Source: a virus
Virus record (IMG/VR): IMGVR_UViG_3300025809_000075
Coordinates: 1 to 31,329 of that record
DNA: 31,329 nt
Strand: one strand, 5' to 3'
The notes under the pieces are model-generated. The model was not told the origin of the DNA. It ran no database searches and saw only the letters and a program-made list of their open reading frames with translations. The position numbers and the translations under genes were made by a program. Shown one piece after another: positions 2-18,851 of the stretch (the first letter of the stretch is position 1; every line of letters starts with the position of its first letter).

Positions 2-2884
2 TTTGGTCCACTTGGTGCTAGACTTAAAGATGACCCTGATGTATTTATCTTCAACAAGAGATATTCTATTTCAGAGATTGTTGATAGCCAAATAGCAGAC
101 AACCGTTATATCGAAACATGGAGAGGTAAAGCTGGTGCTAAGTTAGCTCGGAGAGCCTTCTATAATCGTACAGCGCCTATCTCTGCTTATACTCAACCTA
201 TCATTAGTCGTTACCCTTCTTTGAAGAATGCTAAACAAGCACTGCTTAATAAGATACCGGGTTATACACAATGGAAATCGGTTAACAAACTCTTAGAAGC
301 CAAAGGTCCAACAGACTCTTGGATTACTAGGCAGATTGCTAAACTACGTGGTAATGCTCGTGAGATACTTGATGGTGAGTTTCTGTTTGCTAGAGACCGT
401 AAGAAAGCTATTGCAACACTAAATGACAAGTCTACTAAGGCTCTTGCTAAATCAATGGAAGCTATTGCTGCTGCTGATGGTGCAGACTACGATATGCTGG
501 CTATTAAGATTGGTCAGATATTCGACGAAGAGCTGGGTAACTTAAACCCCTTCCGTTCTAAGACTCTTAAAGAGTTCCACAAGGATGGTGCAAAGATTAT
601 TACTAGTCTGGAAAAGCAAAAGTTAATTCGTACAAGTGTATTCAGAGACTCTGGAACAACTTCACCTATTGACTTAGCTACAGGTAGACCCTCGGCAGAT
701 AAATCTTTGCGTGGCACAAGTGTGTTTAAGCAGATTGAGATTGTTGATGGTAGCCTACGGCAACTACAGATAGCAAACGCTAAGTCTCGTGCTGCTAGAC
801 GCTTTGGTGTATACAACAACCGTGATAAGGTCTATGCTCGTGCAGGTCAAAAAGAATACTTTGATGCCCGTGGTCGTAAGACTAACATGCCAGTTGTATC
901 TGAAAAGGTTTATGCTGACTACGATGCTAAACAGATTGACCGTGATATAGCTAACATGCTTAATCATGCTAACTCTGTTAAGTACTCTGTTGACAACGAC
1001 TTCTTTGACTTTGCTGAAGAGGTAATTTACTTTAAAGCTAAACGTACAGGTGACTCTAAGTTGCTTGAGCAGAATGAATGGAAGAAACTGTTTATTGATG
1101 CTCGTGGTAATGATGGTCGTGGTGTACTAGCTACAGCTAAGTTCCATAGACAACGTAATCAAGCTTTCCAAGTGGATGCTTCAATTGACTTCCGTGGTCG
1201 TGTATATCATCGTGGACTACTCACACCTACTAAAGGTGAGACAGTACGTCCGTTCTTGAATACATCTAGAGCAGTATCAGTTAACCCTGATGTTCTAGAA
1301 GAACTGCAGACACAGATTGGCGCTGCTACAGGTAATGCAATTGACGTACTAACTGTTAAAGGTAGACTTAAAGCGTTTAAAGACATTGAACAAGACTTGC
1401 TAGAACTTGGTAGCTACATGCTAGACAAGAAAACACAACGTGCAGGTCAGGTTAGAAAGTTTATTGCTAAGACTCACCAGATGGGTCTTGATGATGAGCA
1501 CATCGGTAAGGTATCTCGTCTTGCTCTAGAATACACTCGTATATACCGTCACATGGATGGTAAGATGTATACTGACAAGACTAAATGGAGTCCTGCTGAT
1601 ATTAAGAAGCTTGCTGGTTACAAGACAAGAATGATGATTGAGAACGATGCTAGTTCATCTGGTGCTCAAATTATTGCTCTATCTACTCGTGATAAAGCTG
1701 CTGCTAACCTATCTAATGTTATACAGACACCAGAGAAACAGCGTCTCTACGATGAGATTGCTAAGTTAACTGTTAATGACCCTGAGTTCCTTGCTATTCC
1801 TGAACTTCAAGACTTAGACCTAGACTGGTCTGACTTGATGAAGGCTGCTAAGAACCAGAACATGGTTACATTCTATGGTGCTGGTGATGCTACTAAGTCG
1901 GCTAACGTTGCTAACGCTTTTGCTAAAGTACTAGCTAAGAAGGGTAAAGTGACTATTTCCTCAAAGGAAGTAGATAAGTTTAAGAAAGCCATTGATGCTA
2001 AGATTAGCTTCGAAATGGACAGAAAGAATTGGACACGCATAGACGAATTGCGTGATATCAAAAGAGATGTGGTTCTATCCTCTAAGCAGGGTAAACCAAT
2101 TACCGAATCCTTACACGACATTGCTAAGTCAGAGTTTAAGGATGGTATTAAGAGTTCAGAAGACATGCATACATTCTTGTATAAACTTCGTGATGAGACA
2201 GGAGACCTTGTAGGTACTCGTGTGTTTGAGAAGATATCTAAGATTATGTCAGGTCATCTAGAAGAACAAGTTCCTGTAACAGGTAAGTTCATTAAGTTCT
2301 GGAAAGATGTTGCGAAAGATTATGTTCGTGAATCTGAGTCAGTAGATATCCCTTGGGTGACTTTTGATGGAAAGACAATGATGCAACGCTACCGTGTTAA
2401 GGAGCAAGTAAGAATAGACTTTACAGACCCGATAACTGGGCAGAAAGTTTATAACATATACGAAGCACCTTCTCGTAATGGGAAGCTAATGTCAGAACAA
2501 TCAATACAAGATTCTGCTATTGGTCTTGGTGTTAACGGCAATCACAGTAATGATGCTGTGCTTGTTAGAAGATTCCACCTTTGGGGTAGAAAGAATAACG
2601 TAGACACTGGAACTATCCACGATGCGTTCTTTACAAACTTAGGTGACGCAGTTAATGCGAAATGGGCTTTACGTCAGTTGTATGCAGATGCACTGAAATC
2701 AGGCACCATTGATAAGACTCTTAAAGCAATGCGAGAGTCAGGTATGTCAAGAGAAACATATCGCAAATACTTACAACGAGCAAAAGATGATGGGCTTCTG
2801 CAGTCCGGACCTGATGCTTTAACATACGATGAAATCCTTGCTCCAATTGAGTCTGGGAATGATTGGTATGGTATCGGCCCATAA
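2..2884 (+). CDS. Virion-type single-subunit (T7/N4 family) RNA polymerase, 5' partial
   Basis: The frame is open from the window edge, so the true start lies upstream; the TTG at 221 is internal. 960 residues are visible. All catalytic signatures of T7-family RNA polymerases are present. The DxxGR loop is DFRGR (396-400). Motif A is DASSSGAQ, with catalytic Asp549. Motif B has Lys617 and Tyr625-Gly, with the same Lys-Tyr spacing of 8 as T7 K631/Y639. Motif C is HDAFF, with Asp874. The T7 Arg627 position is Met here. The sequence is strongly diverged from T7. It sits directly before the scaffold and capsid genes, as expected for a protein packaged in the particle. In phage N4 a similar virion polymerase is injected and transcribes early genes from hairpin promoters. 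The enzyme call is firm; packaging is inferred from position. Confidence 0.85.
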   Translation, partial: FGPLGARLKDDPDVFIFNKRYSISEIVDSQIADNRYIETWRGKAGAKLARRAFYNRTAPISAYTQPIISRYPSLKNAKQALLNKIPGYTQWKSVNKLLEAKGPTDSWITRQIAKLRGNAREILDGEFLFARDRKKAIATLNDKSTKALAKSMEAIAAADGADYDMLAIKIGQIFDEELGNLNPFRSKTLKEFHKDGAKIITSLEKQKLIRTSVFRDSGTTSPIDLATGRPSADKSLRGTSVFKQIEIVDGSLRQLQIANAKSRAARRFGVYNNRDKVYARAGQKEYFDARGRKTNMPVVSEKVYADYDAKQIDRDIANMLNHANSVKYSVDNDFFDFAEEVIYFKAKRTGDSKLLEQNEWKKLFIDARGNDGRGVLATAKFHRQRNQAFQVDASIDFRGRVYHRGLLTPTKGETVRPFLNTSRAVSVNPDVLEELQTQIGAATGNAIDVLTVKGRLKAFKDIEQDLLELGSYMLDKKTQRAGQVRKFIAKTHQMGLDDEHIGKVSRLALEYTRIYRHMDGKMYTDKTKWSPADIKKLAGYKTRMMIENDASSSGAQIIALSTRDKAAANLSNVIQTPEKQRLYDEIAKLTVNDPEFLAIPELQDLDLDWSDLMKAAKNQNMVTFYGAGDATKSANVANAFAKVLAKKGKVTISSKEVDKFKKAIDAKISFEMDRKNWTRIDELRDIKRDVVLSSKQGKPITESLHDIAKSEFKDGIKSSEDMHTFLYKLRDETGDLVGTRVFEKISKIMSGHLEEQVPVTGKFIKFWKDVAKDYVRESESVDIPWVTFDGKTMMQRYRVKEQVRIDFTDPITGQKVYNIYEAPSRNGKLMSEQSIQDSAIGLGVNGNHSNDAVLVRRFHLWGRKNNVDTGTIHDAFFTNLGDAVNAKWALRQLYADALKSGTIDKTLKAMRESGMSRETYRKYLQRAKDDGLLQSGPDALTYDEILAPIESGNDWYGIGP

Positions 2885-2974: not shown

Positions 2975-3649
2975 ATGGAAAATCAAGTAGAGAATGAAGT
3001 AGTAACCGAAGAAGTAACTACACCCGAAGCCGAAGCTCCTGTTGTTGAAACAGAAGGAGAGGTAGTAACACCTGCGGACGAAGTTGAAGCATTGGTAGCC
3101 GACCGTTTGGCGAAGATGAAAGAGAACATGGACCGTATGTCTAAAGAGCGTGATGACGCTTTGAAAATGAAAGCTGACATGGAAGCTAAGGCGAAAGAAG
3201 ACGCCATTGCCCGTATGAAAGAAGAAGGTAAACTCCAAGAAGCTTTAGAAATGGAACTCGCAGACGCTCGTGCTAAACTGGCATCGTTCGAAGAGCAGAA
3301 TGTAAAACTGACTCGTGACAACGTATTGAACCAAGCATTAGCTGGTATGGAATTCCGTAACGATAAATCACGCGACATGGCTCGCCGTGAAATCGTAGAA
3401 CAACTGACACAAGGTGAAGAGGGTGGCTGGGTACATTCTTCAGGTCTGACTATTGCAGACTTTGTTGAGTCCTACGCTAAATCCGAAGACAACTCATTCC
3501 TGTTCCGTGTTAAATCTAACTCGGGCGCAGGTACAGGTACTCCTGCAGGAGCACCTTCAACCGACATGGCCAAATCTATTGGTGAAATGTCTACAACTGA
3601 AATCCTTGCTCTTGCAGCAAAAGGTAAACTAGGTAACTTTAACCTATAA
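2975..3649 (+). CDS. Capsid assembly scaffolding protein
   Basis: 224 residues. I start at ATG 2975, which has a purine-rich AGGAAAGGA ribosome site. An in-frame GTG at 2924 lacks such a site. The N-terminal 40 residues are very acidic and low in complexity. Residues 45-125 are a charged, heptad-like coiled coil rich in Lys, Glu, Met and Ala. The C-terminal part has a Gly/Ala/Pro/Thr-rich linker followed by a short helix, a common layout for the capsid-binding tail of scaffolds. It lies just upstream of the major capsid gene, the usual place for a scaffold. The scaffold is normally lost or cleaved during head maturation. Assignment rests on composition and position. Confidence 0.8.
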   Translation: MENQVENEVVTEEVTTPEAEAPVVETEGEVVTPADEVEALVADRLAKMKENMDRMSKERDDALKMKADMEAKAKEDAIARMKEEGKLQEALEMELADARAKLASFEEQNVKLTRDNVLNQALAGMEFRNDKSRDMARREIVEQLTQGEEGGWVHSSGLTIADFVESYAKSEDNSFLFRVKSNSGAGTGTPAGAPSTDMAKSIGEMSTTEILALAAKGKLGNFNL

Positions 3650-3684: not shown

Positions 3685-4785
3685 ATGGCTATTACAAACA
3701 CAGACTTCCAGAACATCGCTCTGGCAATCTCCGCTTACTCAGACGAAGCTTACACAACAGCTAAGAAACTGAACGGCACAGGCATCGTTGCTTCCGACCA
3801 GCGCATCGACCTTTCCGGTGAAAGCTTTATCGGTCAATTCCGTTGGTACAAGCCTTTGTCAGCTACTGTAAACGTTGCTTCTTTGGCTTCTGCTACAGAC
3901 GGTACATACACTGGCATGTCCACAGACGTTGCTGACTTCGTTAAGACTGTTCGTACTTTCGGTGCAGAGCAAGTTAACATGCAAGAAGTTGTAAGCAAAG
4001 CCGATGGTCTTGCTAAAATCGCTCGTGACTTCGCTGAAGTACGCGCACAAGACGAGCATGACGCTCTTTTGTCTGTTCTTAAAGGTGTTGCTGCTCACGA
4101 AGTTAGCCTTGGTACTACTTCTGGTATCTTGGACTTCGACACAGACGCTGACACTGCTGGTGTTGGTTCTTTCGTAGACGTTAACGCTGCTGGCCTTCAC
4201 GGCGCTGCTGCAACTGGTGCTGGCGATGCACGTAAATTGTTTGACGCTTCTGCAATGGGCGCTGCCCGTGGCGAACGTTTGTTCCGCTCTATCGGCGCTG
4301 CATTCAAAGACTATGAGCCTGATTTCATGTACATGGTTACTTCTCCTGAAGTGATGGCTGAAATGCGTGCTGCTAACTTGGTTGACGAAACTACTGTTAC
4401 TGAAGGTAACATCGAGTTCACAACTATCTTCGGTGGCAAATTCCGCCTCATCATGACTCGTGCTAACCAAGGTAACTTGGGCGCTGAAGCTGAAGTAAAC
4501 GCTGTGTCCACAAAGACTACCTTCATCATCAAGCCAGGTTCTGTTGCTTCTGCTTCTATGCCTATCCCAACACCTGTTGAAGTTGACCGTTCGGCTGCTT
4601 CTTACATGGGTGGCGGTTCTACTAACGTTTGGTATCGTTGGGGCTACGCAATGCACCCAATGGGTTACGACTGGGCTGGTGCAACCACTGCTTTCGCAAC
4701 TAACACAACTATGGGCGCTTCTGCTTCTTACGCACGTAAAATGGACGCATTGAACTTGGGCATCTTGCCTATCTTCCACGCTTAA
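3685..4785 (+). CDS. Major capsid protein
   Basis: 366 residues with an AAAGGAA ribosome site. Expected to form the icosahedral shell with the HK97 fold. An N-terminal helical region is followed by an Ala/Gly/Thr-rich beta-rich domain. A segment near 230-255 (ThrSerProGluValMet then GluPheThrThrIlePheGlyGlyLys) resembles the core P-domain of phage coat proteins. Codon use differs from the neighbours: C-ending codons such as aac, gac, ttc and atc dominate, as expected for the most highly expressed gene. It is flanked by scaffold and head-tail adaptor genes. No protease gene is visible nearby. Confidence 0.88.
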   Translation: MAITNTDFQNIALAISAYSDEAYTTAKKLNGTGIVASDQRIDLSGESFIGQFRWYKPLSATVNVASLASATDGTYTGMSTDVADFVKTVRTFGAEQVNMQEVVSKADGLAKIARDFAEVRAQDEHDALLSVLKGVAAHEVSLGTTSGILDFDTDADTAGVGSFVDVNAAGLHGAAATGAGDARKLFDASAMGAARGERLFRSIGAAFKDYEPDFMYMVTSPEVMAEMRAANLVDETTVTEGNIEFTTIFGGKFRLIMTRANQGNLGAEAEVNAVSTKTTFIIKPGSVASASMPIPTPVEVDRSAASYMGGGSTNVWYRWGYAMHPMGYDWAGATTAFATNTTMGASASYARKMDALNLGILPIFHA

Positions 4786-4808: not shown

Positions 4809-5315
4809 ATGGCACTTGTACTCAATACAAACAGCTACGTTTTGATAGCAGACGCTGATACATACTTTGAGACTCGTATTGATAGTGCCAACTGGCTTGA
4901 CGCTGAAGACGAAATCAAAGAACAAGCACTTGTCACTGCTACTTATATGGTAGATGACAACTCTTGGATTGGTTCTGCTGTTAGTTCCTCTCAAGCACTG
5001 GCTTGGCCCCGTAAGAATGCTTTCTACTACGATAACCGTATGGGAACCAATATTACGGTGGCCGACTCAGAAATCCCTAACAAGGTAAAGGTTGCAGTAT
5101 ACGAACAAGCACTGCACTTAGTAAACAACGAAGATGTACTGATGGGTCAGTCTCAAACTTTTGAGTCTATCTCTATCGGTTCTATCTCGTTGTCTGACTC
5201 CAACGGAGACGTTACCCGTATACCTAAAAGACCTGTCGAAGTACTTAGAAGCATTAAGCCTCTGATTATTCGCGGGGCTGGTGGTATGGGTGGCTCTTGG
5301 TGGAGGGCCAACTAA
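4809..5315 (+). CDS. Head-tail adaptor (connector) protein
   Basis: 168 residues, preceded by AGGAGAGAGA. The N-terminus (Ser-Tyr-Val-Leu-Ile-Ala-Asp-Ala-Asp-Thr-Tyr-Phe) and the later LeuAlaTrpProArg and IleProAsnLysValLysValAlaValTyrGluGlnAla segments are typical of the helical head-completion adaptor family often mislabelled DnaT-like. These proteins form a ring under the portal (HK97 gp6 or SPP1 gp15 role). The C-terminus is Gly/Trp-rich. The stop codon overlaps the next start by one base (TAATG), so translation is probably coupled. Assigned from motif pattern and position right after the capsid gene. Confidence 0.75.
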   Translation: MALVLNTNSYVLIADADTYFETRIDSANWLDAEDEIKEQALVTATYMVDDNSWIGSAVSSSQALAWPRKNAFYYDNRMGTNITVADSEIPNKVKVAVYEQALHLVNNEDVLMGQSQTFESISIGSISLSDSNGDVTRIPKRPVEVLRSIKPLIIRGAGGMGGSWWRAN

Positions 5316-5650
5316 TGTCTTTAAAAACTAAACTCAAAGGCGCAGTAGACAAGGCGTTTGCTGCTGCCGGAGACTTGGTACTTACAGGGACATTAACTAA
5401 CATAACTGCGACTGGTTACGACTTTTCTAGTGGAGCAACAGCTTCTACATCAAAGAAAGAATCAGTTAAGATAATCATACTTGACACAAAGAAATCTGCT
5501 GGTCAACCTTACACTGCCACCGCTATTATAAAGTCAGGTCCAACCTTGGACAACTATGACTCTATTTTAGTAGGTACCGATAAGTACAGCATTATAGATT
5601 TCTCTGATAATGGATTTTCTGTTGACTTGACACTTAAGAAGGAGGTATAA
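5315..5650 (+). CDS. Putative head closure / head-tail joining protein
   Basis: 111 residues from ATG 5315, which overlaps the previous stop and follows GGAGGG. A TTG at 5297 is a less likely start. The sequence is predicted to be mostly beta, with Thr/Ser-rich strands and an AspLysTyrSerIleIleAsp segment like those in beta-barrel stopper proteins. Its place between adaptor and tail terminator matches the head-closure (stopper) ring gene of siphoviruses. No diagnostic motif is visible, so the role is inferred from gene order. Confidence 0.55.
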   Translation: MSLKTKLKGAVDKAFAAAGDLVLTGTLTNITATGYDFSSGATASTSKKESVKIIILDTKKSAGQPYTATAIIKSGPTLDNYDSILVGTDKYSIIDFSDNGFSVDLTLKKEV

Positions 5651-6054
5651 TGTTTACACAAACTTTAACCGCCGTTGAAAGTGTTTTCGGTAGTTCCGCT
5701 TGGACTGCTAACAACATTAAAACTATCCCTGACAATTTTGAAGGGGATATGTCTAATTCCTCTGAGTATGTACATATCTCTGTCTTACCTTCCAGTAGTA
5801 GTCTATTGGCTTTTGGTGTTGATAGAAAGTTAAATGGCCTTGTTGCTGTCAAAATCTTTGTTCCTGCGGGTTACGGTCAACGCCGCCTAATGGAAATCGG
5901 AGACTTGCTTGACAACGTACTACAATACAAAACCTTATCTAATGGGACTAGGCTTGATAGTTCTTACATTAACGTAGAGGGGCTAGACCCTCGTAATGAA
6001 TCGTTCTATAGCGGTTCATACTTCATACCATTTACGCTATACGGAGAAAATTAA
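5650..6054 (+). CDS. Tail terminator protein
   Basis: 134 residues with one of the strongest ribosome sites in the window (AAGGAGGT); the start overlaps the previous stop by one base. The alternating beta/alpha pattern, with a central ValAlaValLysIlePheValProAlaGlyTyrGly strand, a GlyAspLeuLeuAspAsnValLeu helix and a C-terminal strand ending in PheThrLeuTyrGly, fits the lambda gpU-like tail terminator fold. Such proteins cap the tail tube and join it to the head. The gene directly precedes the tail tube gene, as in many siphoviruses. Confidence 0.65.
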   Translation: MFTQTLTAVESVFGSSAWTANNIKTIPDNFEGDMSNSSEYVHISVLPSSSSLLAFGVDRKLNGLVAVKIFVPAGYGQRRLMEIGDLLDNVLQYKTLSNGTRLDSSYINVEGLDPRNESFYSGSYFIPFTLYGEN

Positions 6055-6055
6055 T

Positions 6056-6598
6056 ATGGCACACATTTCATCCTTGGGTGCGGGTATCTTTACATACCTC
6101 GACATCTTCAAAGGCACCATCCCAGCGGGTACTGATACCTCTGCTGAAATGGCTGCTCTTTTCGTAGGCACCGTTGACGGAACAGCTGACGCAGACCATG
6201 TTCGCATGCCATCTGTTCGTGAATTCCCATCTATCGGTACACCTGCTAACATCGTTAACGTTCCTGTTTACGGCCAAAAGACTTCTTCGCAGGTCCAAGG
6301 TCAGTCTGATGCTCCATCTTTGGAAATCACTGTAAACTACGTTGCAGACGACATGACAGCAATCCACGCTCTCATCGACGGAAACCAAAAGGCATTCCGT
6401 TTCATGATGTGCGCAACTGCTACAACTGAAGACGAAGGCGCAGCTGCCCTTATGGCTACTGAGAACACTGAGTTCTATTTCCTCGGAAAAGTAGAAGCCA
6501 TCTTGGTAAACCCAGCACTTACAGACGCTACAACTGCGACTGTTACTTTGTCTGCACAAACAGACTTCTTTGGCCCAGCAACTTTGGCTGCTAGCTAA
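6056..6598 (+). CDS. Major tail tube protein
   Basis: 180 residues from ATG 6056 (Met-Ala-His-Ile-Ser), with CGGAGAAAA upstream; the in-frame codon at 5996 lies inside the preceding gene and is rejected. The segment GluPheProSerIleGlyThrProAlaAsnIleValAsnValPro, the run ValGlnGlyGlnSerAspAlaProSerLeu and the C-terminal Thr-rich strands are typical of siphovirus tube proteins, which stack as hexamer rings. Codon use is biased to C-ending codons, as in the capsid gene, consistent with high expression. A 10-bp hairpin follows the stop. Confidence 0.8.
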   Translation: MAHISSLGAGIFTYLDIFKGTIPAGTDTSAEMAALFVGTVDGTADADHVRMPSVREFPSIGTPANIVNVPVYGQKTSSQVQGQSDAPSLEITVNYVADDMTAIHALIDGNQKAFRFMMCATATTEDEGAAALMATENTEFYFLGKVEAILVNPALTDATTATVTLSAQTDFFGPATLAAS

Positions 6599-7926: not shown

Positions 7927-10900
7927 ATGAGTGGTGTAGAGATTCGAGTACGTGCTAATGCGAAGCAGGCTCAGAATGAAATTAGAAAGACAGGCAAAAG
8001 CTTAAAGAGTTTAGAAACTCAAGCCGCCGATATTACAAAGACTTTCCGCCGTATGGCTATTGGTCTTACAGCTGTATTTGCTGGTGGTGGCATTACTAGA
8101 GGTATTAACAGCGCAGCTGACGCTATGATTGGTCTTAACAACCGGGTCAAACTGGTTACTAAAGACGCAAAGACAACACAAAAGACAATTAACGACTTAT
8201 TTGACATTGCCGCTCGTTCAGGTGGTAGTATTGATGCAGCAGCAGAAACCTTTAACCGTTTTGGTTTGGCTCTACGGGACTCCGGTAAGTCAGTTAATGA
8301 ACTACTAACTGTTACCGAAGCGGTACAAAAGGCTGCTATTATCTCTGGCTCCGGTGCAGAATCAGCTAAAGCCGCTATCGTACAGTTGGGTCAGGGTCTT
8401 GCCTCTGGTCAGCTACGTGGTCAGGAACTTAATTCGGTACTCGAACAGATGCCAAGGCTTGCACAAGCTATCGCAGAAGGTATGAAGATTCCTTTTGGTA
8501 AGCTACGTGAAGAAGCTATGGCGGGTAAGATTACGGCTGAAGCAGTATTCCAAGCACTACTAGATGGTGCTGGCAAGATTAATGACGAGTTTGGTACACT
8601 ACAATTCACCACTGCTGACCTTGCAACCGTAATGAAGAACGAGCTCACTAGGGCTATTTCTGAGTTCGATAGGGTCACAGGTTTCAGTGAAGCCTTTAAA
8701 GCAGGTATACTTGGCTTAACAACTGCTTTCAGATTTGTTGGAAAGAATATTGAGAGATGGTCTTTAAACACACAGCTGGCTTTCTTGATTGTAGAGTCAC
8801 AGGCTAAAGACTTTGTTAAAGGTATTACAGACCTGTTCAGTGCTGACTTTGACGCAGCTGCTTTTGGTAAGCGACTTGGTGAAAGTCTTACTAAAGCATT
8901 TAAAGACGCTAAATCTTTTGGTGCTCAAAAGGTAGAAATCGCTCTTGACTTTTCAGTTAAAAAGTATAACTTGATTAAGAGCATGTTTCCTGAAGGTGAA
9001 GGAGGAATCCTATCAACCCTTACAAGATTTGCTACTAAAGTTAAGGACATCTTTGTAGGTCTATGGAAAGCCATTGTAGGTGACTCTTGGTGGACAGGTA
9101 TCTTTGACCCTTCACACGAAGAGCTTGGTAAAGCGTCTATAGGTAACGTGCAGTCTTGGGGTAAACACCTAGATAAAGCAAGAAACTATATTGCTGGCTG
9201 GGCAGTAGGTATCGCAGGAGTATTTGAAGAATTACACTTTGAGGCTTTAGACGCTTGGCAGTTGCTTGTTACAGATGTTGAAACACAAGGTTTTACCACT
9301 ACTGCGTCACAAAGAATTGTAAACCCTTTGAAAGAAGCTTTTAATTCATTGTTTGATGAGATTGGCAATGCTTACAACAGATTTGCATTAAGTGGTCTAG
9401 GCACTCAAATTAAGCTTCCCACAACTAACGAAATAACAGATAGTTGGAATGAGACTTTAACTTCTATGCGAGAAGCATACGACAAGACAATTGGTGTGAT
9501 TAATGAGCTTCCTATTGTAGTTGCAGCTAAAGTAGCGTTTGATACAGCTTCAGAAAACTTTTCTGAAATTACTGACGGTGTTAAAGGCTTCTTTAAAGAT
9601 AATGAGGCTAACCTAACTACAGTTATTGCTTCTGGTATGGCAATTGCTTTCAGCAAAGGTCTTCGTAGTGCTACTTTCAAGCTTGCTATACCTCTTGCTA
9701 TTCTATCTGCTGTTGGTGGTTTAGGTAACAGTCCAGAGTTCTTGGCGGCTGTAGGGAAAACAGCTAAGTCTTTTGGTGAAACCTTCAAAGACTTAATTTC
9801 AGGTGATGGGGATGTTGTTGCTAACATCTTGACAGGTCTTGGTAACGTATTTTCTACAATAGGCACAAGCTTTATTGATGGTCTTTTCGGAGAAGACTTC
9901 GAAAGTGATTTTGTTGATAGTGGTGCAACTGCCTTAAGTGCTGCTCTTGTTGCACTAGCTGTCGCCCCTACTTTAACTAAAGCCGCTGCTATGTTTGGCA
10001 TTAAACTCGGAGGTATGCTTCTTGCTCCTTCTGCGTTTAGCACTGCTATTAGTGGCGTTGCTACTAGCGCTGCGTTTATCGCTGCTACTACCAAGCTACG
10101 TACTAGCATGTTTGCCTTGTTATTTGCTGCTGATATGGCTTCACCAAAAATAGTTTCTGGTCTGTCTACAGCTATGACAGGTGCAGGTAAGGCAAAGAAG
10201 TTCTTGTCGGCTGCTAAAGCATTAGGTAAAAGGCTAATTGCAGGGATAGCTATAGGGTTTACTGCAAATGCCATAGGCGACATGCTTGGTGACGCTCTTG
10301 GACTTAACAAAGTAAATATCTCTTATGATGAGTTCGGTGATGGAATAAAGACTAGCAGCATTGGAACAACTTTGTTTGACTTGTTCAACGATGCGCTATC
10401 TGGTGCCATTGCGGGGTTTGTTGTTGGCGGCCCTTGGGGCGCTGTTGCAGGTGCTCTTGGTGGCGCTCTTCTAGGTATCTTCGTATCTGAAGAACAAAAG
10501 AACGGTATCATCAATATGTTCCATGTTGTTAAAGATGCTGTACTAGATGGTCTAACTTCTGCTTGGGATGCTTTCAAAGAGTATGCTAGTGATTGGACAC
10601 CTAACTGGCTTAAGGACTTGTTTGGTGCTAAAGAAGGCTTCGGAGGCTCACAAGAGTTTGAAGCTGACGCATCACAACTACCTGCATCTTTTGCTGGCTA
10701 CGGACAACAACCCGGTGAAACAGATGAAGAGTACAGGAAACGTGCTCAGAACTTTAACACAGGTGGTTACGTCTCTGGTGCAGGTACAGGCACCTCTGAC
10801 TCTATTCCTGCTATGCTTTCTAACGGTGAGTATGTCATTAAGGCTGCTGCTGTTAACAAGTTGGGTAAAGGTAAACTAGACTTGTTGAACCAAGGTATAC

Positions 10901-11664
10901 TTCCTAAGTTTGCCACTGGTGGTATCGTAGGTCGTGCTCAAACAGAAATCAGAGACTCTTTCGCTCGTGGTGATGTTGGCTTAGCTATGGAAATGATTTC
11001 CTTAGTTGAACAACTCGGTAAGTTAGATGAGACTCTGGACGGTCTCACTGATGAGATGAAGAAAGAAGTTAAGAAGGTTGCTAATGTTGGTGGTCGTTCT
11101 GAAGAAGAACAAACTCAAATTGATAACCTTAGGGCATCCTTCAACAGTCAGCTTTCTAGTGCTATTTCTGCTGTTATGCATGGTGGTGATTGGAAAGACG
11201 TTCTACACGGTCTCCTTGACTCTGTAACAAGCACTATCATCAACAACTTTGCTGATGGCCTTGCAGAAGGCATAACTAAGAACATTGACTTTGATTCTAT
11301 GTTCGATGGTCTTGGTAATATTTTTAGCTCAGGCTTTTCTATGGGCGGTGGCTCAGGTATCGGTGGACTTTTGTCTGCGGGTCTTGGCTTCCTTGGGTTC
11401 TCTCAAGGTGGTGTTGTACCGAACATACCGGGCTCACAAGCGGGTAAGGACTCTGTTCCTGCAATGCTTATGCCGGGTGAAGTTGTTCTTTCTAAGAATG
11501 ATGTTCGCAATATGAACAACAACCAGTCTGGTACTCAACAATCATTTAACATCAATGTATCTGGTGATGTGTCACGACAGACTCGTAAAGAGATTGTTAA
11601 GATGCTTCCACAAATTACTAGCGGTGTTAACATGAATAACAAAGAGTCTAACTACAGACGATAA
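7927..11664 (+). CDS. Tail tape measure protein
   Basis: 1245 residues with an AAAAGGAGAA ribosome site. Residues 1-260 match the tape-measure N-terminal domain: an early helical region, then SerGlySerGlyAlaGluSerAlaLysAlaAlaIle and GlyGlnLeuArgGlyGlnGluLeuAsnSerValLeu. Hydrophobic stretches at roughly 561-601, 666-724, 769-793 and 824-856 could insert in the host membrane during DNA entry. Two Gly-rich blocks near 946 and 1160 share the pattern GlyGlyxVal...AspSer(Ile/Val)ProAlaMetLeu...GlyGlu(Tyr/Val)Val. At about 0.15 nm per residue the tail would be near 187 nm. The protein sets tail length and occupies the tube lumen. No lytic transglycosylase motif was recognised. Confidence 0.92.
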   Translation: MSGVEIRVRANAKQAQNEIRKTGKSLKSLETQAADITKTFRRMAIGLTAVFAGGGITRGINSAADAMIGLNNRVKLVTKDAKTTQKTINDLFDIAARSGGSIDAAAETFNRFGLALRDSGKSVNELLTVTEAVQKAAIISGSGAESAKAAIVQLGQGLASGQLRGQELNSVLEQMPRLAQAIAEGMKIPFGKLREEAMAGKITAEAVFQALLDGAGKINDEFGTLQFTTADLATVMKNELTRAISEFDRVTGFSEAFKAGILGLTTAFRFVGKNIERWSLNTQLAFLIVESQAKDFVKGITDLFSADFDAAAFGKRLGESLTKAFKDAKSFGAQKVEIALDFSVKKYNLIKSMFPEGEGGILSTLTRFATKVKDIFVGLWKAIVGDSWWTGIFDPSHEELGKASIGNVQSWGKHLDKARNYIAGWAVGIAGVFEELHFEALDAWQLLVTDVETQGFTTTASQRIVNPLKEAFNSLFDEIGNAYNRFALSGLGTQIKLPTTNEITDSWNETLTSMREAYDKTIGVINELPIVVAAKVAFDTASENFSEITDGVKGFFKDNEANLTTVIASGMAIAFSKGLRSATFKLAIPLAILSAVGGLGNSPEFLAAVGKTAKSFGETFKDLISGDGDVVANILTGLGNVFSTIGTSFIDGLFGEDFESDFVDSGATALSAALVALAVAPTLTKAAAMFGIKLGGMLLAPSAFSTAISGVATSAAFIAATTKLRTSMFALLFAADMASPKIVSGLSTAMTGAGKAKKFLSAAKALGKRLIAGIAIGFTANAIGDMLGDALGLNKVNISYDEFGDGIKTSSIGTTLFDLFNDALSGAIAGFVVGGPWGAVAGALGGALLGIFVSEEQKNGIINMFHVVKDAVLDGLTSAWDAFKEYASDWTPNWLKDLFGAKEGFGGSQEFEADASQLPASFAGYGQQPGETDEEYRKRAQNFNTGGYVSGAGTGTSDSIPAMLSNGEYVIKAAAVNKLGKGKLDLLNQGILPKFATGGIVGRAQTEIRDSFARGDVGLAMEMISLVEQLGKLDETLDGLTDEMKKEVKKVANVGGRSEEEQTQIDNLRASFNSQLSSAISAVMHGGDWKDVLHGLLDSVTSTIINNFADGLAEGITKNIDFDSMFDGLGNIFSSGFSMGGGSGIGGLLSAGLGFLGFSQGGVVPNIPGSQAGKDSVPAMLMPGEVVLSKNDVRNMNNNQSGTQQSFNINVSGDVSRQTRKEIVKMLPQITSGVNMNNKESNYRR

Positions 11665-11672: not shown

Positions 11673-11701
11673 GGTCATCCCTTCGGGGGTGGCCTTTTTT
11701 T
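11673..11701 (+). terminator. Strong terminator ending the structural region
   Basis: An 8-bp stem, GGTCATCC with GGGTGGCC including G-U pairs, closes on a CTTCGG loop and is followed by seven T residues. The hairpin is identical to the one at 19701. It separates late structural genes from the early region. Confidence 0.88.
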
Positions 11702-11736
11702 ACCAAATCTAGAAGTATTTTTACCCCAAAAAAGTG

Positions 11737-11758
11737 GGGGTTTTGCACCCTCTATAAT
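11737..11758 (+). promoter_or_regulatory. Early promoter candidate 1 (G4-N7-C3-TCTATAAT)
   Basis: GGGG (11737-11740), seven bases ending in A, CCC, then TCTATAAT. It lies just after the terminator and 42 bases before the first early gene. No TTGACA-like -35 box is present 17 bases upstream of TATAAT (that hexamer is AAAAGT). It shares its plan with the elements at 14224 and 15455. It may be a hairpin promoter for the virion polymerase, or a -10-only host promoter. Confidence 0.6.
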
Positions 11759-11799
11759 AGAAGAACGAAAGAACTTAACCTTAAATGGAGACCAAAACA

Positions 11800-12429: not shown

Positions 12430-12449
12430 AACCTGAAAGGGAGACCAAA

Positions 12450-12695: not shown

Positions 12696-12707
12696 ATGGA
12701 GATAGAA

Positions 12708-13171: not shown

Positions 13172-13434
13172 AAGTACAACTTGAATTATACATCAATAAT
13201 GTTGAGCATCAACTTGACGCTGAAATGATTGACTATGGTGTTGTGATTCGTCATACAGGTACAGTAGAAGACCTTGACGGAGACTATGAAGTTATCGAAG
13301 GTCCAGAGTTTGCTCACATCACACTTACTGATGAGGCTGGCAATCAGTGGAGCCCTCATAGCGAACTACTTGAGTCAATGGATGATATACTACGTGACTA
13401 TTGGTATCAACTAGTAGAGGATAATCTAATCTAA
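13168..13434 (+). CDS. Acidic small protein, unknown
   Basis: 88 residues, strongly acidic, mostly beta in its first two thirds and helical at the C-terminus (SerMetAspAspIleLeuArgAspTyrTrp). The start is coupled to the 18-residue peptide. The last A of its TAA is also the first base of the endolysin ATG, so the two may be co-translated. No family recognised. Highly acidic early proteins often bind host proteins as DNA mimics, but nothing specific supports that here. Confidence 0.6.
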   Translation: MKVQLELYINNVEHQLDAEMIDYGVVIRHTGTVEDLDGDYEVIEGPEFAHITLTDEAGNQWSPHSELLESMDDILRDYWYQLVEDNLI

Positions 13435-13838: not shown

Positions 13839-13849
13839 GGAAGACCAAA

Positions 13850-14221
13850 ATGAAAACTCTTATCACAGCAGCAATCATCGCAGTATCCGCAACTACAGTA
13901 GTAGCTAACCCCTTGACCAAAGCAGAGAGCCTTGGTAAATGTGTTGGCATTGCTCAAACAATCTTAGACAACTTCTCGATTGATATCATGTTGTCTGACA
14001 AATGGAACAACGAAAAACTCACAGCTATTGTTGACATTAGCTTTGACCGTCTCTTCGAACTTGAAGAGGCTACAACAGAAGGCATGGGCAGCGCAACAAC
14101 CAAGGCTGTTAAAGAACGCATGGGCGAAAAGTTCGACTATGGTATTCTGTTTGGAGGTGGCTTTGCTAACGCAGGTGGCCTAAATAACGCAACAGAATTC
14201 ATGTTGAATAGCTGCAAATAA
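13850..14221 (+). CDS. Exported protein with signal peptide and two cysteines
   Basis: 123 residues from ATG 13850 after GGAAGACCAAA. Residues 1-19 form a Sec-type signal peptide (Met-Lys-Thr-Leu, hydrophobic core, Val-Val-Ala cut). The mature part is helical, with one Cys near its start (GlyLysCysVal) and one at the extreme C-terminus (AsnSerCysLys), so a disulfide could tie the ends together. A Gly-rich segment (LeuPheGlyGlyGlyPheAlaAsnAlaGlyGly) lies before the last helix. First of six exported two-cysteine proteins. No family recognised. Confidence 0.7.
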   Translation: MKTLITAAIIAVSATTVVANPLTKAESLGKCVGIAQTILDNFSIDIMLSDKWNNEKLTAIVDISFDRLFELEEATTEGMGSATTKAVKERMGEKFDYGILFGGGFANAGGLNNATEFMLNSCK

Positions 14222-14223
14222 CT

Positions 14224-14246
14224 GGGGAAATCCACCCCTCTATAAT
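14224..14246 (+). promoter_or_regulatory. Early promoter candidate 2 (G4-N7-C4-TCTATAAT)
   Basis: GGGG (14224-14227), AAATCCA, CCCC (14235-14238), TCTATAAT. The G and C runs can pair as a 4-bp stem with a 7-base loop. It lies directly after a stop codon and 31 bases before the next ATG. The hexamer at the -35 position is ATAACT, which is not host-like. Confidence 0.65.
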
Positions 14247-14279
14247 GAACAAATCAAAGTCTTGAAAGGACATACTATG
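14234..14279 (+). repeat. 46-base direct repeat, copy 1: promoter, leader and start codon
   Basis: Identical to 15465-15510. It spans ACCCCTCTATAAT, a leader with the ribosome site GAAAGGA, and the ATG of an exported-protein gene. The mature proteins downstream are unrelated, so the promoter-leader unit was probably duplicated. Confidence 0.9.
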
Positions 14280-14762: not shown

Positions 14763-14763
14763 T

Positions 14764-15150: not shown

Positions 15151-15451
15151 CTACAATATACAAACTAGCAATGGTGCTGGTTGTTCACAAAATGAAAACA
15201 CAGGTCGTTCTGTAGAGTTCGGTGCTGATGTTAATACTTACACAAATGAAAGCAACTTCTCTGTTACTTATAGCATCCAGTTGGGTCGTGATAAGTTAAA
15301 GAAGATTGACTGTTCTGCCATGTATAACCTAGAAGTATCTAGACAACGCATGGAACTTGAAAAGCAACGCTTAGAACTTGAGCTACTACGTACTCAAATA
15401 GCAAACGCTAAAGCCCAAAAGAAAGAAGTCAATCTTGGTGATGACTGGTAA
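15080..15451 (+). CDS. Exported protein with C-terminal coiled coil
   Basis: 123 residues, starting inside the previous gene with AGGAGTCGGTT upstream. The signal peptide is residues 1-22 (ending SerMetAlaThrAla). The mature N-terminal half is beta-like: ThrSerAsnGlyAlaGlyCysSer, ArgSerValGluPheGlyAla, then SerTyrSerIleGlnLeuGly. The second half begins LysIleAspCysSerAlaMetTyr and continues as a Glu/Leu/Arg/Gln coiled coil of about 40 residues. Two Cys only. The layout suggests a periplasmic oligomer; a spanin-like or surface-assembly role is conceivable but unproven. Confidence 0.65.
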   Translation: MKKLSLVLSVLSAVALSSMATANSYNIQTSNGAGCSQNENTGRSVEFGADVNTYTNESNFSVTYSIQLGRDKLKKIDCSAMYNLEVSRQRMELEKQRLELELLRTQIANAKAQKKEVNLGDDW

Positions 15452-15454
15452 ACC

Positions 15455-15477
15455 GGGGTAAACTACCCCTCTATAAT
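15455..15477 (+). promoter_or_regulatory. Early promoter candidate 3: perfect 6-bp hairpin plus TCTATAAT
   Basis: GGGGTA (15455-15460) and TACCCC (15464-15469) are perfect inverted repeats around a three-base loop, AAC. TCTATAAT follows. A short GC-rich hairpin with a 3-base loop just upstream of the start is the hallmark of N4 virion polymerase promoters. The -35 hexamer position reads TAAACC, which is not host-like. Confidence 0.7.
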
Positions 15478-15510
15478 GAACAAATCAAAGTCTTGAAAGG
15501 ACATACTATG
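15465..15510 (+). repeat. 46-base direct repeat, copy 2: promoter, leader and start codon
   Basis: Identical to 14234-14279, including the ribosome site and the initiator ATG. Only the loop and upstream flank of the hairpin differ. Confidence 0.9.
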
Positions 15511-15804
15511 TTTAAATCTATCATCGCAGCAGCAGTAATCGCAACAGCAACTTTCGTAACTCCAGCAAGTGCAGCACTACCTATGGCTACTTGTAAGGTA
15601 TTAGGTAACCTAATTGAGAACGTAGCTACACTTCGTGACGCAGGTGTTTCCCCGGTAGAAGTGTATGAACTGCTAACTGAAAATGGCCTCACACCAGCAG
15701 TCGCCGCTAACATGCTTGAGATTGTTTTTATTACAGGTAAAGATGTTGACGGTAGCCTCTTGAACCCATTGTTCGTAGGTACATGCGTAGGAGAATCAGC
15801 ATAA
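15508..15804 (+). CDS. Exported small helical protein, two cysteines
   Basis: 98 residues from ATG 15508. The signal peptide is residues 1-22 (ending ThrProAlaSerAla). The mature part of about 76 residues is helical, with Cys near each end (AlaThrCysLys and GlyThrCysVal) that could form one disulfide. The middle repeats a helix-turn pattern: AlaGlyValSerProValGluValTyrGluLeuLeu, then AsnGlyLeuThrProAlaValAlaAlaAsnMetLeu. Unknown function. Its signal peptide resembles those of the genes at 13850 and 14277. Confidence 0.7.
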   Translation: MFKSIIAAAVIATATFVTPASAALPMATCKVLGNLIENVATLRDAGVSPVEVYELLTENGLTPAVAANMLEIVFITGKDVDGSLLNPLFVGTCVGESA

Positions 15805-15938
15805 TGACTAAAGCACAACAACGTAAATCACCTGAGTTCATGAAAGAAATCTCATTCAAAGAACTCGTAAAAGCAATCGATGCCAAATGGTCACACACCT
15901 ACGGAGACGTAGATGACCAAGGTAACGAGGTTCGTTAA
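15804..15938 (+). CDS. Small cytoplasmic protein, 44 residues
   Basis: Starts in the stop of the previous gene (TAATG) with AGGAGAATCAGC upstream. Basic N-terminal third, acidic C-terminus (TyrGlyAspValAspAspGlnGlyAsnGlu). No signal peptide, in contrast to its neighbours. No family recognised. The coupled start and good ribosome site support it as real. Confidence 0.55.
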   Translation: MTKAQQRKSPEFMKEISFKELVKAIDAKWSHTYGDVDDQGNEVR

Positions 15939-15949
15939 TATTCTACAGT

Positions 15950-15991
15950 GTCCCTCTTCGGAGGGGCATCATAGAGCACTAACGCTCTTTT
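15950..15991 (+). terminator. Tandem hairpins, probable terminator
   Basis: The first hairpin is GTCCCTC-TTCG-GAGGGGC (15950-15967), a UUCG tetraloop on a 7-bp stem. The second is AGAGC (15973-15977) with GCTCT (15984-15988), followed by three more T residues (to 15991). They lie in the 73-base gap before the gene at 16012. Confidence 0.65.
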
Positions 15992-16011
15992 AGCCCTATA
16001 GGAGAAATAAA

Positions 16012-16215
16012 ATGGGAATTATCTTTGCAATCGTAATGCTTGTCGGCGCAACAACAGCAGCTGAAAATGCCGAACTATGTATCCACAGTGACCGCTCAAC
16101 ACTCACACAAGCTCAAGTATCTGAATGTGAATCATATGCAGAACTTCATGACGAAAACCTTGGTTGGAACCTTGGCGGAATGACTACTGGTGCAGTTATC
16201 GTCATGGGTAACTAA
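16012..16215 (+). CDS. Small exported or membrane-anchored protein, two cysteines
   Basis: 67 residues with ATAGGAGAAATAAA upstream. A short hydrophobic N-terminus (residues 3-16, with Ala-Thr-Thr-Ala-Ala) could be a signal peptide or anchor. It is followed by GluLeuCysIle and SerGluCysGluSer, then a hydrophobic Gly-rich end. The two Cys match the pattern of the five exported proteins upstream. Unknown function. Confidence 0.55.
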   Translation: MGIIFAIVMLVGATTAAENAELCIHSDRSTLTQAQVSECESYAELHDENLGWNLGGMTTGAVIVMGN

Positions 16216-16259
16216 TACCTCTAAACCAACTAATAAATCTTTCATATCGGAGAATACAC

Positions 16260-16439
16260 ATGACAACTATTACACACGCAACAACTTCCGCAGCTTTCAC
16301 TTACACGGTAGGTGGTACAAATGTTCGTGAAACTTGGCTTGATGGTTCAGGCAAAGTAATTAACTACTCGACTAAAACCCCACGGGGTCGCTACCTTGTG
16401 TCCTTGATTGCTCGTAAGGGCTTTGCTAAGACTAAATAA
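16260..16439 (+). CDS. Small protein, 59 residues, unknown
   Basis: ATG 16260 after CGGAGAATACAC. Thr-rich beta-like N-terminal half, basic C-terminal half (ArgGlyArgTyrLeuValSerLeuIleAlaArgLysGlyPheAla). Followed directly by a strong terminator. The basic tail may bind nucleic acid, but no family is recognised. Confidence 0.55.
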   Translation: MTTITHATTSAAFTYTVGGTNVRETWLDGSGKVINYSTKTPRGRYLVSLIARKGFAKTK

Positions 16440-16447
16440 ACTTAATC

Positions 16448-16480
16448 GCCCTGCTGCCCTTCGGGGTGGTGGGGCTTTTT
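16448..16480 (+). terminator. Rho-independent terminator in the early region
   Basis: A 12-base arm GCCCTGCTGCCC pairs with GGGTGGTGGGGC around a TTCG loop, with G-U pairs, followed by five T residues. It would reduce read-through from the small early genes into the RNA polymerase gene. Confidence 0.8.
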
Positions 16481-16512
16481 AATCTAATAATTTTTTTTGA
16501 AAGGTTCACATT

Positions 16513-16575
16513 ATGAACATCACACTATTTATTTGCGCTGCGCTTGTCTTACATTTCGTAGGGGTGGCTAAGTAA
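16513..16575 (+). CDS. 20-residue hydrophobic peptide
   Basis: MNITLFICAALVLHFVGVAK, preceded by GAAAGGTTCACATT. A single hydrophobic helix long enough to span a membrane, ending in Lys. It lies alone between a terminator and a structured leader. It may be a real membrane micropeptide; such a short ORF could also be chance. Confidence 0.35.
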   Translation: MNITLFICAALVLHFVGVAK

Positions 16576-16596
16576 ATAGTTAAATTGTCCTTAACA

Positions 16597-16624
16597 GTGG
16601 AGTGTCGAAAGATACCCCGTCCAC
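16597..16624 (+). promoter_or_regulatory. Structured leader upstream of the second RNA polymerase gene
   Basis: GTGGA (16597-16601) pairs with TCCAC (16620-16624). Inside, GTGTC and GATAC pair around a GAAA tetraloop, with a CCCG bulge on the 3' side. It could be an RNase III-type processing site like those of T7 messages, a translation control element, or part of a promoter. Confidence 0.45.
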
Positions 16625-16643
16625 ATATAGAAGGAATGGCTGA

Positions 16644-18851
16644 ATGAACTCAATGGAAATACTTTGCGAAAACATTCGTGAACGGCAAGGCTACCTTATG
16701 GATTTAAAAGGTGAAAAACCTGACAAGCGAAACACTGCTTGGCATCTATATGACAAAGACCCAGAAGAAATGATTAGCTTTACCTACGGACATATACTAA
16801 GTAAGATTGAGATATTGGCTGAACTAACCACTATCCTATCTTCAGTAGGTGGCTCTATCAACAGACGATATAAACTAAAACTAAACGAGGTAGACTCAAT
16901 CCACTTGGGTTGGTTTGTGTTCTTGGCCTATGTTGATACAGGTATCGTAGATATCAATCGTAAGCGCAAGAAGAAGAAAAACGGCAAGCTTAGTAAACAC
17001 TCTTCTTACCATGTTCAGGTAAAAGATGCAGCTGCCCTTAACAGTGTCTTAGAACAAATAGACACAAACGATACAGAAATGTTTCCTTCTCCTGTAGCAC
17101 CTGCTGATTGGGAAGTTGGGAAGTTTTACCATGAAAGTGGATACCCATTAATTAAGAAGAACCCACATGAAGATGCGGTTAAAGCTTGTAAGTTGGGTGG
17201 CACAGAGTACTTAGTGGAAACGCTAAACAAACTAAACAAGACTGCTTGGCGGATTAACCCGTTTATATTTGACACATTTAAGAAGTGTACCTTCTTAGGT
17301 TCAGATAAAACTCCGTTTAAGTTTAAGAAAGAGGTAGACCCTGTTAAGAGGGCTTCCTTAGAAATAGAAGCAAGGGCTATTGAGAAGCTCGCTGAAAGGA
17401 ACAAAGACAATGCTTTCTATCATCTGTATAATGTTGACTTTCGTGGTCGCATATACCCTAACACTGCGTTTCTACATGAGCAATCCTCAGACAACGCCAA
17501 GGGGCTTCTACTCCTCGACAACCCCGTACCTCTAGGGGAAGATGGTTTCTACTGGCTATCAGTACACACAGCTAACATGTGGGGTAACGATAAGGTCTCT
17601 CTTGATGACCGTGCTCAGTGGGTTCAAGACAACTTCTTCGACATTTGTTCTTATGTGGGAGACCCTATGAAGAATACAGGGTGGATGGATGCAGACAAAC
17701 CCTTTTGTTTCCTTGCTTGCTGTTTTGAGCTTAATAGTTTAGCTGAGTGGGGTGTTCATAAAGACCCCGAAGACTTTCCTTCATGCCTACCTATATACAT
17801 CGATGGCTCTAACAACGGTGTTCAGCACCTCGTTGCTATGTCTAAAGATGAGGCGGTTGCTCCTTTGGTTAACTTAAAACCACAAGAGTTACCGGGGGAT
17901 GTCTACATGTTCATAGCTGATAAGGTTATTGAACAAGTAAAGATAGATGCTGAAAAGCTTTTAAGTGTTGAAGGTACGACTGAAGCATTTAAAGAACTCT
18001 ACGATGACTTTGTTGCTCTAGAACAGAGTGTTAATAGACACTCGGTAAACCCTAAATCAGAGCTATTCTCACAGGCTATTAAACGCCGTAGTGAGTTTGG
18101 TAACGCAAAGAGAGACTTGTTAAAGAAGTTTGCTCCTTTGTACTGGTACAACATCAAAGAGAAAAAGATATGGCGTAAGACTGTTAAACGCCCTGTCATG
18201 ACGCTGGGCTACGGTGCTGTTAAGTACGGCATGGTAGAACAAGTACACGATGATACACGAGACATCTCTACTTACTTAAGAGATAAACACAAGTCGTGGT
18301 CTGCTTACCTAGGCGATATGGTTTATGAAACCTGCTATCGTGAACTCAAAGGACCAGCACAAATGCTGCGTATGTTTGAGGCTCTAGGTGAACAAGAGAA
18401 TGAGAAAGATAAACCTATTGCTTTTCGGCAAATCATAACAGGTTTACCTTTTGTTCATGCCTATCGTAAAGGTGAAAATAGAACTGTTAAGCTATCACAT
18501 AACGGTGTACGCATGGAGCTAGAGTTTACTCTCTGGCAAAACGCTACACTAAATAAAGATAAGCAAACACAGTCGGCTCCGCCTAACATTGTGCATAGCA
18601 TTGACGCAGTACACTTGTCTATGTTTATACACGATACAGACTACCCTGTTACTGTTGTGCACGACTCTTTCGGTTGTCACGCAGGTAACATGAATAAGGC
18701 ATTCTATGATGTACGTAATCACTTTGTAGAGCTTTATGATAGTAACCCACTTGAGCACATCTTCGAACAGATGGGTGCTTTACCACTAATACCCAACAAG
18801 GGAAATCTGAACGTAGCTGATATTATCGCTTCAGACTTCGCATTTGCATAA
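16644..18851 (+). CDS. T7-type DNA-directed RNA polymerase
   Basis: 735 residues (T7 has 883), with AGAAGGAATGG upstream. All signatures are present: DFRGRIY, motif A IleAspGlySerAsnAsnGlyValGlnHis with Asp387, motif B Arg511-Lys515-Tyr523-Gly with exactly the T7 R627-K631-Y639 spacing, and motif C ValHisAspSerPheGly with Asp674. The C-terminus LysGlyAsnLeuAsnVal...SerAspPheAlaPheAla closely matches that of T7 RNA polymerase. The shorter length falls in the N-terminal, promoter-binding part, so its promoters probably differ from T7's. The gene ends the early region and precedes the replication genes, so it likely transcribes them and perhaps the late genes. Confidence 0.95.
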   Translation: MNSMEILCENIRERQGYLMDLKGEKPDKRNTAWHLYDKDPEEMISFTYGHILSKIEILAELTTILSSVGGSINRRYKLKLNEVDSIHLGWFVFLAYVDTGIVDINRKRKKKKNGKLSKHSSYHVQVKDAAALNSVLEQIDTNDTEMFPSPVAPADWEVGKFYHESGYPLIKKNPHEDAVKACKLGGTEYLVETLNKLNKTAWRINPFIFDTFKKCTFLGSDKTPFKFKKEVDPVKRASLEIEARAIEKLAERNKDNAFYHLYNVDFRGRIYPNTAFLHEQSSDNAKGLLLLDNPVPLGEDGFYWLSVHTANMWGNDKVSLDDRAQWVQDNFFDICSYVGDPMKNTGWMDADKPFCFLACCFELNSLAEWGVHKDPEDFPSCLPIYIDGSNNGVQHLVAMSKDEAVAPLVNLKPQELPGDVYMFIADKVIEQVKIDAEKLLSVEGTTEAFKELYDDFVALEQSVNRHSVNPKSELFSQAIKRRSEFGNAKRDLLKKFAPLYWYNIKEKKIWRKTVKRPVMTLGYGAVKYGMVEQVHDDTRDISTYLRDKHKSWSAYLGDMVYETCYRELKGPAQMLRMFEALGEQENEKDKPIAFRQIITGLPFVHAYRKGENRTVKLSHNGVRMELEFTLWQNATLNKDKQTQSAPPNIVHSIDAVHLSMFIHDTDYPVTVVHDSFGCHAGNMNKAFYDVRNHFVELYDSNPLEHIFEQMGALPLIPNKGNLNVADIIASDFAFA

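Follow-up and report, generated by a model that had tools for sequence, protein, structure and literature searches.

Why does a siphovirus-type phage encode an RNA polymerase (RNAP) among its head genes, when a second RNAP gene lies further downstream on the same DNA? The question is raised by the window analysed here, an IMG/VR fragment of 31,329 bp that was taken as a whole. A first-pass annotation had described two single-subunit RNAPs in it, the first encoded directly before scaffold and capsid, among the structural genes, and the second a T7-type enzyme with the C-terminus SDFAFA. Our searches bear this out: both ORFs, 2-2884 and 16644-18851, score above the PF00940 cut-off, and the genes following the first one match phrog_206 and phrog_247. 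In the following, the two proteins are called MuF-RNAP and RNAP2. The main genes of the window are:

2..2884, + strand: MuF-RNAP gene, 3' part, C-terminal RNA polymerase region of 960 aa (PF00940, AlphaFold2, Foldseek)
2975..3649, + strand: head scaffolding protein (phrog_206, E 6.9e-14)
3685..4785, + strand: major head protein (phrog_247, E 1e-21)
4809..6598, + strand: region of head-tail adaptor Ad1, tail terminator and major tail protein (phrog_477, phrog_179, phrog_158)
7927..11664, + strand: tape measure protein, 1,245 aa (PF20155, E 2.7e-52; PHROGs)
16644..18851, + strand: RNAP2, T7-type RNA polymerase, 735 aa (PF00940, E 2.5e-80; phmmer against T7 RNAP, E 2.6e-55)
22159..23955, + strand: DNA polymerase (phrog_17, E 4.1e-127)
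27909..29570, + strand: primase/helicase (phrog_239, E 2.2e-149)

The start of the window cuts ORF 2-2884, leaving its 5' end open. Since scaffold, major head protein, Ad1, tail terminator, major tail protein and tape measure genes come next, the ORF is part of a siphovirus-type head/tail cluster; no sheath gene was found among the proteins tested in the window. With the portal gene known from the sequence of relatives, the MuF-RNAP gene is located between portal and scaffold/capsid.

ORF 2-2884 matches PF00940 with E 2.4e-8, above the curated cut-off, and the RNA polymerase family phrog_414 with E 4.8e-24, while RNAP2 is a far more typical PF00940 protein. A sequence profile search of the PDB with the RNAP alignment gave no significant match (the top one was an N4 RNAPII chain, E 0.057), and the fold comparison was used for this reason. 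The polymerase part was modelled with AlphaFold2 from a 40-row family alignment (pLDDT 83, pTM 0.81). In Foldseek, the model matched T7 RNAP (3e2e) with E 1.5e-19 and probability 1.00, and mitochondrial RNAPs were matched as well. Against viral models, the 1,463-aa protein of phage DSS3_VP1 was the top match, followed by T7-type RNAPs, with N4 virion RNAPs (vRNAPs) lower. Structure prediction, which had been named as a check, hence returned a T7/mitochondrial RNAP fold, with motif C at the turn of a beta-hairpin. The motifs of MuF-RNAP are located as follows:

1187..1201, + strand: DFRGR motif, residues 396-400, equivalent to T7 421-425 (family alignment)
1646..1663, + strand: motif A, DASSSG, catalytic Asp549 (family alignment, model)
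1850..1885, + strand: motif B, KNQNMVTFYGAG, K617/Y625/G626 (family alignment)
2354..2464, + strand: equivalent of the specificity hairpin (T7 about 739-770), near-invariant within the family (alignment)
2618..2623, + strand: motif C His-Asp, H873-D874, catalytic Asp874 (family alignment, model)

DFRGR, D549, K617/Y625/G626 and H873-D874 are near-invariant in 40 relatives, and these residues or close equivalents are kept across clades at 31-36% identity. The catalytic motifs had been called complete, which holds for DFRGR and for motifs A, B and C but not for the equivalent of T7 Arg627, which is Met613 in the window protein. The Arg is lost in most Naomviridae-type members and mostly present in the MuF-RNAPs of a diverged clade. 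In the pairs compared, the polymerase part has a dN/dS of about 0.04-0.09, indicating strong purifying selection. Judged by the cut-off and the palm motifs A, B and C, both polymerases of the window are single-subunit T7-type RNAPs, with catalytic activity predicted.

In two relatives, group I introns (RF00028, E 2e-25 and 6e-22) split the MuF-RNAP gene at motif B (L055:11850-12140 and L056:11922-12276). The MuF-RNAP gene of ESV1 carries an insert with an HNH gene (L005:21519-22350) in the same motif B codons (NMV|TFYGAG) as the introns.

An upstream extension had also been suggested in order to find the start of the first RNAP and any fused domain, and it revealed an N-terminal MuF domain. 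Among the 79 related loci recovered for the window, L006 on contig IMGVR_UViG_3300009505_000075 (G001/L006) matches the window at 99.96% identity along 12.9 kb; when L100 is included, a further 6.8 kb match at 99.8%. This near-identical contig completes the window protein to about 1,480 aa, adding about 525 residues upstream of the window that include the MuF domain. The N-terminus of the completed protein matches Phage_Mu_F (PF04233) with E 1.0e-19, as do the proteins of DSS3_VP1 (E 1.8e-13) and EBPR siphovirus 1 (E 1.3e-15). The first RNAP is therefore no free-standing enzyme but the C-terminal portion of a minor head protein of the MuF type. A single reading frame with PF04233 at the N-terminus and PF00940 at the C-terminus is present in G001/L006, in DSS3_VP1 and in relatives long enough to tell. 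PF04233 was found above the cut-off in 20 of 21 records, the lone exception being 5'-truncated, and the portal gene lies directly upstream. The fusion has a length of 1,450-1,540 aa throughout, intron-split copies excepted. A fold search of the PDB with the N-terminal model gave no match, and this region is called MuF from the domain match in its sequence.

MuF proteins are known to enter the particle, as shown for SPP1 gp7, which enters the procapsid via the portal (PMC6316719), and delivery to the host has been proposed for MuF-fused enzymes (PMC5512222). SPP1 gp7 is also a DNA-binding portal protein without a polymerase (PMC6316719); together with the loss of the Arg627 equivalent in most Naomviridae-type members, it would fit a polymerase domain that is inactive or structural, for example DNA-binding or a plug, or a fusion whose role is confined to the late phase in the producing cell, with no ejection. 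We regard this as very unlikely, given that the catalytic residues are retained across clades, that selection on MuF-RNAP is strongly purifying and that the early block contains a dedicated promoter class (see below). Moreover, the group I introns occupy active-site codons of MuF-RNAP, as is common for introns of this type in conserved essential genes.

Two classes of promoter-like elements occupy separate territories in these genomes. Class A is a 40-bp element, AAAAAA[GC]TG[GA]G[GA]AAA...[CG]C[CA]TCTATAA[TC]GAAGAAA, with the core CTCTATAATGAAG and 2-4 copies per genome. In nine genomes, which include the near-duplicates G003 and G010, 28 of 29 sites fall within the block from tape measure to RNAP2, and every site is on the + strand; one class A-like site of VP1 is found outside this block. 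True sites score 21-59 bits, versus maxima of mostly 3-17, once 20, in Markov-shuffled genomes. The class A sites of the window and the hairpins around its early block are:

11673..11694, + strand: intrinsic terminator-like hairpin 3' of tape measure
11728..11767, + strand: class A promoter-like site 1 (39 bits versus a window shuffle maximum of 3.3)
14216..14255, + strand: class A promoter-like site 2 (54 bits)
15447..15486, + strand: class A promoter-like site 3 (44 bits)
16448..16475, + strand: terminator-like hairpin 5' of RNAP2
16597..16624, + strand: conserved leader hairpin just 5' of the RNAP2 start
19701..19722, + strand: terminator-like hairpin, stem-loop identical to 11673-11694

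Several further features were seen in this region. A 60-nt promoter-leader block is duplicated at 14220-14279 and 15451-15510 and is followed by two small genes whose N-termini are signal-peptide-like. The early class A block also holds, at 13434-13838, a gene for a cell wall hydrolase (PF07486). The late block and the gene that follows RNAP2 are each closed by a 30-nt terminator hairpin whose loop is TTCG; the two copies (11670-11699 and 19698-19727) are nearly identical. The leader hairpin at 16597-16624 is bulged (outer stem GTGGA/TCCAC, an inner stem and a 3' bulge) and precedes the ribosome site of RNAP2. Seven genomes keep it, G017 with a compensated pair, and it may control the translation of RNAP2. 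Between the terminator and this hairpin lies a hydrophobic mini-ORF of about 20 codons (16513-16575), with counterparts at the equivalent position in window-type genomes.

A palindrome in the site at 15447-15486, GGGGTA-AAC-TACCCC, prompted us to consider N4-like hairpin promoters. This candidate was rejected, as the stem is not kept elsewhere or in VP1: no conserved stem was found in class A, the GGGG/CCCC pairing being broken in several copies (GAG vs CCC) and absent in VP1 and G017.

Class A might instead be read by the host RNAP from sigma-70-like TATAAT promoters, with MuF-RNAP being a virion polymerase of another role. Most class A copies indeed contain TATAAT, and the early genes of T7 are transcribed by the host RNAP, which provides a precedent. 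However, a sigma-70 scan of 11600-19800 gave 18 matches versus 16.5 +/- 4.0, which is no excess, and none of the matches coincides with a class A site. There is no -35 element, and the essential T is lost in every copy of some genomes: all copies in G010 and G003 read TATAAC and both copies in G007 TATATA. Furthermore, the conservation of class A reaches into the would-be first transcribed bases (GAAGAAA). We therefore rejected a sigma-70 origin of class A and consider transcription of these sites by the host RNAP unlikely. In the diverged clade, a de novo repeat search revealed no class A, class B or other promoter-like repeat.

Class B comprises 40 pattern sites in the same nine genomes, all on the + strand and none in the block from tape measure to RNAP2; in VP1, a PWM scan gave two weaker class B-like matches inside this block. 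The sites occupy syntenic places, with two or three before the portal gene (counted where this region is present; G017 showed none), one shortly after RNAP2, another before exonuclease/primase and a further one after RNR. Two are listed for the window:

19054..19093, + strand: class B promoter-like site directly after RNAP2
26505..26544, + strand: class B promoter-like site before the exonuclease/primase genes

Depending on the lineage, equal syntenic places carry GGGCGGAATAATGA, CTTGACCCTTATGA, CCCGCAAATAATGA or CGTTAAAGA. In window-type genomes, class B has a frame of AAAATA, 8 variable bases and a TAATGA or TTATGA start. This layout resembles that of T7-type promoters, which have a variable recognition box. 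The class B box is GGGCGGAA in the window, G010, G011 and G007, CTTGACCC in G013, CCCGCAAA in G006 and of the CGTTAAAGA types in G017 and VP1; within a lineage, the change extends to all syntenic sites. In window-type genomes, both classes have the start element (A/T)ATAATGA in common. Class B tracks a phage polymerase and yet shares this element with class A, which is a further argument against the host RNAP as the reader of class A.

The RNAP2 specificity hairpin is 71-89% identical to that of the window in the G010/G011/G007 group and 26-37% identical in G013, G006, G017 and VP1. The MuF-RNAP hairpin is 73-93% identical across the same genomes, where the class A core is retained. The RNAP2 hairpin correlates with class B (r 0.88) and not with class A (r -0.22), and the MuF-RNAP hairpin more with class A (0.61) than with class B (0.27); these values come from six genomes that are related to each other and are supporting, not decisive. 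They point to RNAP2 as the probable reader of class B, and MuF-RNAP would read class A. The reversed assignment, class A read by RNAP2 and class B by MuF-RNAP, could appeal to the class A core, which looks somewhat closer to the T7 promoter core, and to RNAP2 being the closer T7 relative. Under this assignment RNAP2 would need another starter, and class B is rewritten exactly in those genomes whose RNAP2 hairpin diverges (G006, G013, VP1 and G017) and whose MuF-RNAP hairpin and class A core are kept. We consider it highly improbable.

The computation establishes both polymerases, the MuF fusion, the order of the genes, the two promoter classes with their territories and the covariation of class B with the RNAP2 hairpin. 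On this basis we propose the following model, which we hold to be likely: MuF-RNAP is packaged and ejected, reads class A and makes RNAP2, which in turn reads class B, including that of the late operon. MuF-RNAP would be synthesized late together with portal and capsid, as suggested by its position after the portal gene behind class B promoters. The MuF part would carry the polymerase into the procapsid via the portal, by analogy to SPP1 gp7 (PMC6316719). The protein would then leave the particle with the DNA through the tail, for which a folded enzyme of 100 kDa probably must unfold. In the cell, MuF-RNAP would transcribe the block from tape measure to RNAP2 from class A, with transcripts predicted to start at or just after TATAATGA, and give rise to RNAP2. 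Finally, RNAP2 would transcribe the replication genes and the late operon, MuF-RNAP included, from class B. A point against this model is that terminator-like hairpins separate RNAP2 from the last class A site, so that read-through or another signal would be needed.

How widespread is this arrangement? Of the named phages, the roseophages DSS3_VP1 and DSS3_PM1 (Naomviridae) come nearest, with an identity of 44% for the window part of MuF-RNAP and 47% for RNAP2. Both RNAPs were found in 13 of 13 Naomviridae-type records long enough for both loci (23 records in all); nine further records of this type stop no more than about 14 kb past MuF-RNAP on its downstream side, the spacing of the two genes being roughly at least 15 kb. 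The fusion recurs in DSS3_VP1/PM1, in IMG/VR relatives and in the diverged EBPR-siphovirus clade (L108-L123), where RNAP2 is present in the three longest contigs, and the family is mostly marine. The ESV1 record (54 kb, labelled partial) contains MuF-RNAP only and no RNAP2. No relative of MuF-RNAP was found in bacterial genome contigs. In a 108-kb relative (L127-L131, G029), MuF-RNAP, RNAP2 and primase/helicase are each in pieces, which suggests several introns.

A homologue of dCMP deaminase is encoded at 26094-26513 of the window. Such an enzyme is used for dU-DNA in a related roseophage, and dU-substituted DNA has been reported for DSS3_VP1 and DSS3_PM1 (PMC12697855). By analogy with this precedent, the window phage may have dU-DNA as well.

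If the model holds, MuF-RNAP would be a third independent way of carrying an RNAP in the virion, after the N4 type and the two-barrel phiKZ/P23-45 types, and the MuF head module would deliver working enzymes besides toxins. It would also explain how Naomviridae could begin to transcribe their DNA upon entry, dU-DNA included. Specificity change in T7-type enzymes can be studied on the promoter classes paired here with specificity hairpins, a natural data set that might also yield orthogonal polymerase-promoter pairs. Direct testing of the model is possible in DSS3_VP1 and DSS3_PM1, which are both in culture.

In our literature search, no paper describing MuF-RNAP was found; the original description of Naomviridae lay outside this search, and prior notice is possible. 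The literature naming DSS3_VP1 mentions no virion RNAP for this phage, and the ESV1 paper does not mention an RNAP. A survey of the domains in MuF proteins and vRNAPs confines N4-like vRNAPs to N4-like (pro)phages and, in the part considered here, reports no MuF-RNAP (PMC5512222). We think that the fusion probably represents a new class of virion RNAP, in which a T7-type enzyme on a portal-bound MuF protein passes through a long non-contractile tail and starts a cascade of two single-subunit RNAPs, possibly independent of the host RNAP, in a widespread marine family with dU-DNA in some members.

Among known systems, Naomviridae (Noahvirus arc DSS3_VP1, DSS3_PM1) are the closest. The window and DSS3_VP1 have MuF-RNAP, MCP, TMP, RNAP2, DNA polymerase, primase and RNR in equal order and share the class A core, whereas the class B promoters differ. 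In GenBank, the 1,463-aa fusion of DSS3_VP1/PM1 (L003:18390-22781) is labelled 'minor head protein-like' or 'head morphogenesis', and its RNAP part was missed.

The N4 vRNAP (Schitoviridae), to which the first-pass annotation had compared the first RNAP, is likewise a single-subunit enzyme encoded with structural genes, and its proposed ejection and early transcription lead to a second RNAP (PMC4496689, PMC12633501). The likeness holds for the gene position but not for the enzyme: the fold is T7-type without N4 architecture, and Foldseek places T7-type enzymes above N4 vRNAPs. At about 3,500 aa, N4 vRNAP is far larger than the MuF fusion of about 1,480 aa, and its N- and C-terminal parts for encapsidation and ejection are different. 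N4 RNAPII has two subunits, whereas RNAP2 is single-chain. The early promoters of N4 form short hairpins in the template strand, with a loop of 3 nt; class A has no conserved hairpin. In the proposed model, MuF-RNAP works like N4 vRNAP, but it is not of the N4 family.

A virion RNAP in a siphovirus, followed by a second one made after infection, had been put forward as a little-described strategy. The MuF domain, the portal/capsid operon behind class B and the separate promoter class on the RNAP2 block argue for the strategy itself, but it has a precedent in the Thermus siphophage P23-45, whose virion RNAP, carried as a fusion on a structural protein, transcribes a second, non-virion RNAP (PMC10770324). 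The RNAPs of P23-45 are two-barrel enzymes with the virion copy in the tape measure; here they are T7-type, with the putative virion copy on a MuF head protein, and the tape measure of the window is a separate gene with only TMP_3 above the cut-off. MuF effector fusions (phage Mu F, SPP1 gp7 relatives and MuF polymorphic toxins) also combine a MuF head domain with a C-terminal enzyme for which delivery is proposed (PMC5512222, PMC6316719), but their known cargoes are toxins, ARTs, PBECR RNases and RelA/SpoT domains, and here the cargo is an RNAP. RNAP2, finally, is a direct homologue of the T7-type RNAP of Autographiviridae; there early transcription is host-driven, whereas here a virion-encoded relative would precede RNAP2.
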